Positions 38,703 through 39,155 of a stretch of DNA of 64,000 nucleotides are shown piece by piece. The first letter of the stretch is position 1; every line of letters begins with the position of its first letter. A program made the translations under genes and the position numbers. This stretch comes from Pseudomonas fluorescens (GTDB taxonomy: Bacteria > Pseudomonadota > Gammaproteobacteria > Pseudomonadales > Pseudomonadaceae), in NCBI RefSeq assembly GCF_000802965.1, contig NZ_JSAK01000008.1, forward strand, positions 161,189 through 225,188. Reading direction: 5' to 3'. Under the pieces are notes generated by a model that saw nothing but the letters and a program-made list of their open reading frames with translations, did no database searches and was not told the origin of the DNA.

Positions 38703-39155
38703 CTAACGTAGTATCAAATGAATAATCGAATCTCCTACGACATTGTAGCTAGCCAAGGTCCGCCCATCCTCCATCTGCTTTCCTGCAAAGATCAAGCGCT
38801 GTTTGTCTGGAGGGACCCCCTCTTTAACTTGAATCTGTGCTTTCAAACGTTCAACTGAATCCAAGGAAGAAACTTCTATACTTATAGTTTTCCCACTACC
38901 ACTGGGAGGTGTAACGAATATCTGCGAAACTTTTTCAATCTTGAAACCGGTAATATTTCGGATGGAGATAACTCTTGCAACGTTGTAACTGTCCTCATCT
39001 ACAACGGTAATCATTGAGGTTTCTTTAGAATCCAGCTTTCCTGAAAGCGTACGACTCTCTGCTAAAGAGGTGGTCGCATCATTAAATACAAATTCCACGA
39101 AAACCCTATCACCTACTTTTGCCGCATCCAGGATAGCTTGAGTAGCAGTATCCAT
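38703..39155 (-). CDS. Two-domain protein ending in a ubiquitin domain without terminal Gly-Gly
   Basis: The protein has 150 residues. The first ~75 (VGDRVFVEFVFND ... ARVISIRNITGFKI) look like a small beta barrel, perhaps Sm/SH3-like. From QIFV to the end it aligns with eukaryotic ubiquitin; from GKT onward I count about 40 identities in 63 positions, including KEGVPPDKQRLIFAGKQ and EDGRTL. Equivalents of ubiquitin K11, K27, K33, K48, I44 and H68 are kept; K29 and K63 are not. The chain stops at the position of ubiquitin R72 with TAG then TGA, so LRGG is absent and normal conjugation is impossible. ATG 39155 has GGAGG 4 nt upstream. Codons are AT-richer than the chromosome. No E1, E2 or deubiquitinase gene is seen nearby. 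Confidence 0.93.
   Translation of the reverse strand: MDTATQAILDAAKVGDRVFVEFVFNDATTSLAESRTLSGKLDSKETSMITVVDEDSYNVARVISIRNITGFKIEKVSQIFVTPPSGSGKTISIEVSSLDSVERLKAQIQVKEGVPPDKQRLIFAGKQMEDGRTLASYNVVGDSIIHLILR

Follow-up and report, generated by a model that had tools for sequence, protein, structure and literature searches.

The window, a stretch of 64,000 nucleotides of Pseudomonas fluorescens DNA, carries between an alginate lyase gene (algL) and fba, which we take to encode fructose-bisphosphate aldolase, a gene for a fusion protein of 150 residues, in which an N-terminal domain is followed by a ubiquitin that lacks its C-terminal tail (Table 1). Ubiquitin is a textbook eukaryotic protein. The gene starts with an ATG at 39155, with the GGAGG motif 4 bases 5' of it, and the final codon, CGT (Arg) at 38708-38706, is immediately followed by TAG and TGA. 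The GC content of the gene is 0.424, compared with 0.586 for the window. No promoter-like site was found in front of the gene (the scan gave 1 site, shuffled sequences 2.3), and the terminator scan gave 2, compared with 1.3 for the shuffles. The protein begins with MDTATQAILDAAKVGDRV and, as judged by eye, has no hydrophobic leader; it has no match in the anti-phage library PADLOC. The open reading frame for a small protein of 61 residues, on the same strand and 83 bases upstream, is a possible partner gene of the fusion; its product matched no family and has no match among the 29 compared loci.

Table 1. Positions of the fusion gene, its parts and the neighbouring features in the window
Feature	Position	Strand	Basis
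Alginate lyase (algL), left border	37834..38532	+	PF08787; border conserved in relatives
Tandem stop codons TAG TGA	38700..38705	-	Sequence
Fusion gene, 150 residues and stop; N-terminal domain and tail-less ubiquitin	38703..39155	-	ORF, Pfam, phmmer, AlphaFold2
Ubiquitin domain, residues 78-150 (ubiquitin 2-72)	38706..38924	-	
N-terminal domain, residues 1-77; predicted helix 3-11 and five strands	38925..39155	-	Model
GGAGG ribosome-binding motif	39160..39164	-	Sequence
Small protein of 61 residues, N-terminus signal-peptide-like by eye	39239..39424	-	ORF
Copy of fba 3' end and downstream flank, 93.1% identical to 41414-41701	39577..39866	-	blastn
hipB-like antitoxin	39944..40195	+	ORF overlapping hipA; beside hipA in relatives; control-protein models
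hipA toxin kinase	40192..41391	+	PF07804, PF13657
Full-length fba, right border	41472..42536	-	ORF; relatives

The source contig is 497,501 bases long and the genome is 100% complete with 0.1% contamination. Given this long contig, the low contamination, the flanks that are conserved in the genus and the ubiquitin genes that three other Pseudomonas species carry at this site, contamination is ruled out and the ubiquitin gene belongs to this genome. A near-identical variant of the protein (P0002, from a database record of 1,138 bases) lacks, by an in-frame deletion, a portion of ubiquitin strand 2, which is either a natural variant or an assembly effect.

The ubiquitin half of the fusion protein

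The C-terminal half is a near-eukaryotic ubiquitin. The Pfam family PF00240 (ubiquitin) matches the fusion with an E-value of 8.1e-23 and 80.4 bits (cut-off 25.4), and this family has no match in any of the 14 control genomes. The phmmer search against solved structures aligns residues 78-150 to residues 2-72 of ubiquitin (Gln2 to Arg72). In the alignment to human ubiquitin, which was set by hand, 44 of 72 positions (61%) are identical, and the direct count from GKT onward gives exactly 40 of 63, as the sequence-only reading had estimated; a two-residue insertion alters the L8 loop, which is placed slightly differently by two alignments. The residues K11, K27, K33, K48, I44 and H68, which that reading had listed as kept, are indeed conserved, as are G47 and R42, whereas K6, K29 and K63 are lost, V70 is replaced by an isoleucine and residues 73-76 are absent. 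Compared with eukaryotic ubiquitin, therefore, the window protein has much of the sequence and, as predicted, the same fold, but it is shortened at its C-terminus, lacks three of the lysines, has a changed L8 loop and is fused behind another domain.

The AlphaFold2 model of the whole 150-residue protein (mean pLDDT 87.6, pTM 0.64) predicts a near-perfect ubiquitin fold for this half, and its superposition on solved ubiquitins gave 0.6-0.9 Å for most of the 50 matches listed. The first ubiquitin strand starts at residue 76 of the model, and a linker between the two halves is almost absent. Membership of the ThiS, MoaD or YukD-like proteins is ruled out, in agreement with the sequence-only reading: PF00240 and PF11976 are the sole families matching at E 0.001, and there is no Gly-Gly. 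The chain ends at R72, before the two stop codons, as was also read correctly at the outset. Since known ubiquitin chemistry cannot act in the absence of a C-terminal glycine, the sequence of this C-terminus excludes standard conjugation of the window ubiquitin, which is what the same reading had concluded.

The N-terminal domain

The earlier assignment of the C-terminal ~72 residues to ubiquitin was right, but it left the N-terminal 77 residues of the same protein undescribed. These residues match no Pfam family, and one of the four members of this domain matched CutA1 weakly (E 0.036). In the AlphaFold2 model a helix (residues 3-11) precedes five strands, which lie between residues 17 and 73. 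The order of the strands would be compatible with an Sm/SH3-like barrel when the predicted secondary structure is read in this way, this being a reading and not a search result; the matches listed by the structure searches were ubiquitin.

The domain is present in 3 of 398 Pseudomonas genomes, and searching the protein database with it gave Pseudomonas proteins only: a solo protein of 79 residues (P0121, which is the gene found in genome G213), a protein of 78 residues from Pseudomonas sp. SWRI111 (P0122) and a second fusion with ubiquitin, from Pseudomonas sp. NPDC087615 (P0123). A scan of 299 genomes of the phylum gave one strong match, the domain of the window itself, and the two weak others, which are glycosyltransferase-like by eye, are taken as chance. 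An Sm-like kinship to small proteins of G005, G019 and G016, which resemble the domain by eye, was considered and rejected, as profile comparison gave no match (probability 0.2%). Leaderless small proteins of 81-121 residues also occur at ubiquitin-bearing or equivalent sites (L070, on the reverse strand; L071, 1306-1569; L035, 12253-12618). Two of them have glycine-containing C-terminal tails; the three match no family above cut-off and show no profile link to the N-terminal domain of the fusion.

The swap site flanked by alginate lyase and fba

The site bears the marks of repeated replacement of its contents. In the window, hipBA is enclosed by the original fba on one side and, on the other, by the 290-bp duplicate of its 3' end and flank. 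An alginate-lyase match was found in 31 of the 57 relatives searched, and the stretch beside the best match was compared for 14 of these 31. Both borders are present in 12 of the 14 stretches (the contig of G035 ends too early, and the stretch of G022 is without fba). The site is empty in G002 and G021, where ~150 and ~200 bp separate the coding ends, and in G034 it holds hipBA only. Other contents are found in nine of the 12 sites, among them a ubiquitin remnant with a small protein (G033), AbiL-like genes (G029), a ricin-type lectin (G006), a thioredoxin together with hipBA and extra copies of the borders (G011) and a second alginate lyase (G010). The window, G011, G016 and G105 carry duplicated 3' ends of fba or of the alginate lyase gene, and G019 and G033 short decayed pieces of them. 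Such a pattern suggests that homologous exchange has occurred here again and again.

Ubiquitin genes occupy this site in four species: as a fusion in the window and in G105, as a solo gene in G228 and as a remnant in G033. All four are on the same strand relative to the alginate lyase gene; the G105 contig ends before fba. When the window is compared with the other three, the border proteins are 85-99% identical (alginate lyase 84.9-90.1%, response regulator 87.0-90.1% and, where present, fba 98.9-99.2%); the site ubiquitin proteins are 33% (G105), 44% (G228) and 58% (G033, over 45 residues) identical to the window protein. The 'ubiquitin-like protein' P0123 has the same two-domain layout as the window protein, and its near-identical relative in G105 lies beside alginate lyase at the corresponding position and on the same strand; these proteins share only 32-34% of their residues with the window protein, whereas G105 and the window agree at 87-88% in the border proteins. 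The hipBA genes and the ubiquitin gene occur independently of each other: hipBA is present without ubiquitin at the site of G034 and G011, and ubiquitin is present without a hipBA match in the stretches examined of G105 (where the contig ends nearby) and G228.

Among the seven neighbouring proteins scanned (34.5-41.4 kb), two of which match no family, there is no E1, E2 or JAB protease and no secretion gene near the fusion, and no immunity gene was identified for it. Carriage by phages or plasmids is rejected: 50,697 phage records gave no match, viral contigs gave 10 pattern stretches, none of which was confirmed, and of 72,556 plasmid records a single one, from Ruminococcus albus, matched, in the ubiquitin part only.

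Ubiquitins elsewhere in Pseudomonas and in other bacteria

Of the 398 Pseudomonas genomes (species), 17 have a PF00240 match over the family threshold. Matches at E 0.001 occur in 20, and the three below the family cut-off, which are diguanylate-cyclase-like by eye, were left out of the 17. Nine of the 17 have an intact, leaderless, near-eukaryotic ubiquitin (window, G105, G228, G126, G384, G018, G370, G339 and G245), starts and leaders being judged by eye, with uncertain starts for G339 and G245 and eight extra residues in front for G018 and G370. In four (G166, G325, G187 and G092; loci L006, L007, L009 and L010) a leader (by eye) and ubiquitin residues 1-69 precede an autotransporter beta-domain, the barrel of which is shortened in G325. 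Two copies are decayed (G016, by a stop, and G033) and two are divergent (G029 and G085). The C-terminal end is at residue 72-73 in seven of the nine intact leaderless copies; Gly-Gly is kept in G245 and G228.

The conservation of these nine copies with respect to human ubiquitin is highest in the stretch 47-59, which is 0.86 identical. The I44 patch (L8, I44, H68 and V70) is the surface that most host ubiquitin readers use, and its identity is 0.53, versus 0.57 for the remaining surface, when ubiquitin positions are divided by the core/surface split that we assume. The autotransporter ubiquitins are nearly human, with low whole-domain dN/dS where this is computable, but positions 42, 44 and 49, which are part of the face used by host enzymes, differ in each (S-I-Q, T-R-T, R-V-V and A-K-A). 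A second ubiquitin site is common to G384, G018 and G370 (L030, L031 and L032), near an FAD oxidoreductase gene and a NUDIX gene (by eye), and the ubiquitins at this site end at residue 73. The tail-less ubiquitin of G339 (L034) adjoins IS3-type transposase genes and genes that by eye are Mu-like phage head-like.

Within the class, 274 genomes gave two with a PF00240 match over the cut-off. One is that of the window; in the other, G564, the match lies near a contig end and may be eukaryotic contamination. Several further bacterial ubiquitins were noted. In the database protein P0084 the ubiquitin is followed by a proline-rich stretch, a hydrophobic helix and an arginine tail, an arrangement that by eye resembles a bacterial sorting signal. 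The ubiquitin of Lysobacter sp. ISL-50 (L002) has a leader (by eye) and an LRLRGG end, that of a Bacteroides MAG (L003) ends in DVDC, that of an Acidobacteriaceae MAG (L004) has LRLRGG, and the Ruminococcus albus plasmid NC_014824.1 carries a 'ubiquitin family protein'. The literature listings gave no paper on Pseudomonas ubiquitins by title or abstract opening, and BfUbb of Bacteroides fragilis is the one antibacterial bacterial ubiquitin that the literature searches yielded.

Origin and selection

The window ubiquitin is identical to human ubiquitin at 44 of 71 positions and to the other eight leaderless copies at 23 of 54 to 38 of 71 positions, and all eight of these intact copies resemble human ubiquitin more than they resemble that of the window. 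The tree (26 rows and 76 columns) comprises 17 bacterial rows, human ubiquitin and 8 of 290 database matches, of which 120 were listed; G033 is represented in it by a fragment of 45 residues, and G105 and G339 have long branches. Of its 23 inner branches 18 are open and 1 is starred, and the window row adjoins P0084 (95/78). A single clade of the ten leaderless rows is weakly rejected (p-AU 0.034), and so is a clade of the leaderless and autotransporter rows together (p-AU 0.023). The window and G105 as a clade are not rejected (p-AU 0.467), and the value for the four site-sharing rows is 0.054. This hints at several acquisitions of ubiquitin by Pseudomonas, the tested groups having been chosen after seeing the data. 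The idea of a captured eukaryotic gene, put forward in the sequence-only reading, is likely to be correct for the window ubiquitin, while a tree of 76 columns cannot name the donor.

For the tail-less orthologue pair of G018 and G370 (81 codons; NG86, no significance test) dN/dS is 0.34, with a dN of 0.092 and a dS of 0.269. The flanking oxidoreductase of the same pair has a dN of 0.010 and a dS of 0.431, the dN of the ubiquitin being nine times higher. Because of this dN/dS value, together with a dN nine times that of the flank, the ubiquitin of this pair is apparently both functional and fast-changing.

Comparison with known systems

BfUbb reportedly acts by binding a target, a periplasmic prolyl isomerase. 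Bub is a type of bacterial ubiquitination operon, like Bil. Bil operons are characterised by genes for E1, E2 and JAB and by a C-terminal glycine that is reactive (PMC11354881). The window protein has in common with Bil the occurrence of a ubiquitin-like domain in a bacterium, but it has no such glycine, and the scanned neighbourhood contains none of these enzymes. BfUbb also has no terminal glycine, and it inhibits other B. fragilis strains; its region is heterogeneous, holds higBA in strains without BfUbb and is flanked there by a 52-bp direct repeat, and its authors think that an immunity gene is unneeded (PMC5705921). It is made with a signal peptide and has a C-terminal cysteine and, in the mature form of 76 residues, no further domain (PMC3352274). 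Both BfUbb and the window protein thus lack the terminal glycine, and both are found at a variable, repeat-bearing, toxin-antitoxin-linked locus, the variation being across species here and within one species for BfUbb. The window protein differs from BfUbb in having no visible leader, a C-terminal arginine and a fused N-terminal domain of 77 residues.

Proposed function

A ubiquitin that is unable to be conjugated would, from established knowledge of this protein, act by binding. By analogy with BfUbb, the fusion may be a protein of non-covalent antagonism, which binds and blocks a target in competing bacteria; a probability of about 0.4 is given to this reading, which is the preferred one. 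The ubiquitin half would be the binding half, and the N-terminal domain, standing in the place of the signal peptide of BfUbb, would serve release, delivery or oligomerisation. The target in the competing bacteria would be bound and blocked without being tagged, and the rapid divergence of the ubiquitins would reflect changing targets. This reading is suggested by the exchange of contents and the toxin-antitoxin genes at the site, by the quick divergence and by the probable extracellular ubiquitins of the genus, all of which resemble what is described for BfUbb. The autotransporter-linked ubiquitins point to a probable extracellular use elsewhere in the genus, and the three Hcp loci of this genome, all on other contigs, offer a possible T6SS route for the fusion. 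The main point against antagonism is that the fusion has no visible signal peptide, so that release or delivery would fall to the N-terminal domain. Further points against it are that the kept I44 and H68 fit a eukaryotic reader equally well, that the BfUbb-like layout of the locus may be what any accessory site looks like, that the window protein ends in arginine where BfUbb has a cysteine, and that Gly-Gly is kept by two of the nine leaderless copies, in addition to the lack of a secretion gene among the scanned neighbours and of an identified immunity gene.

It is also conceivable, though rather doubtful, that the fusion is directed at a host, as a decoy in an amoeba, nematode or plant cell that would occupy ubiquitin readers, E1/E2 or deubiquitinases, with the N-terminal domain perhaps making the protein multivalent. 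Host mimicry remains a candidate because the window copy keeps I44 and H68. The 61% identity to human ubiquitin, with G47, K48 and R42 also kept, and the predicted near-perfect fold are in agreement with such a role, as is the inhibition of ubiquitination in vitro that is reported for BfUbb (PMC3352274). Mimicry and the activation of a ubiquitin-dependent protein, two of the uses named in the sequence-only reading, are nevertheless not established. Across the nine leaderless copies the I44 patch is no better kept than the other surface, unlike the loop 47-59, which argues mildly against mimicry as a shared function. In addition, the L8 loop of the window copy has an insertion, and no eukaryote-directed secretion signal is recognised in the fusion.

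An intracellular adaptor, which would bind non-covalently in the producer, for example in a phage response or in the regulation of the neighbouring toxin-antitoxin genes, is unlikely. It remains a candidate because the fusion is leaderless by eye, and it is consistent with the good ribosome-binding motif, with the AbiL anti-phage genes that one species has at this site and with hipBA there in the window, G011 and G034. The missing match in PADLOC and the separate occurrence of hipBA and ubiquitin in the relatives (G034 and G011 versus G105 and G228) argue against it.

It is quite improbable that the gene is a passing relic of horizontal transfer with no present function. The low GC content, the lack of a promoter-like site, the decayed copies in G033 and G016 and the internal deletion in the ubiquitin half of P0002 would fit a relic, but the frame of 150 codons is intact and preceded by a ribosome-binding motif, the N-terminal domain and its fusion are common to the window and G105 at the same site, and a tail-less orthologue pair from other species has a dN/dS below 1. 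That the fusion is conjugated in a bacterial ubiquitination pathway, of the Bil, Bub or a similar kind, can practically be dismissed, as the predicted ubiquitin fold is set against a missing C-terminus that refutes the canonical chemistry and against the lack of an E1, E2 or JAB protease among the scanned neighbours. The E2 family PF14461 matched neither this genome nor any of the control genomes.

Returning to antagonism, the observations on the genus can tentatively be brought together as follows. Pseudomonas may have a class of tail-less ubiquitins that were taken up repeatedly, in which tagging was abandoned and which would serve as swappable binding heads, here fused to a lineage-specific delivery domain and elsewhere displayed by autotransporters, and which would be exchanged at swap sites as weapons against neighbours. 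If Pseudomonas keeps captured ubiquitins that end at residue 72-73, with the rest of the protein under selection, then the loss of the tail would be a repeated route from a modifier to a binding protein. As fusion, solo, decayed and empty states are all found at one site, this route is directly testable in laboratory-grown Pseudomonas.
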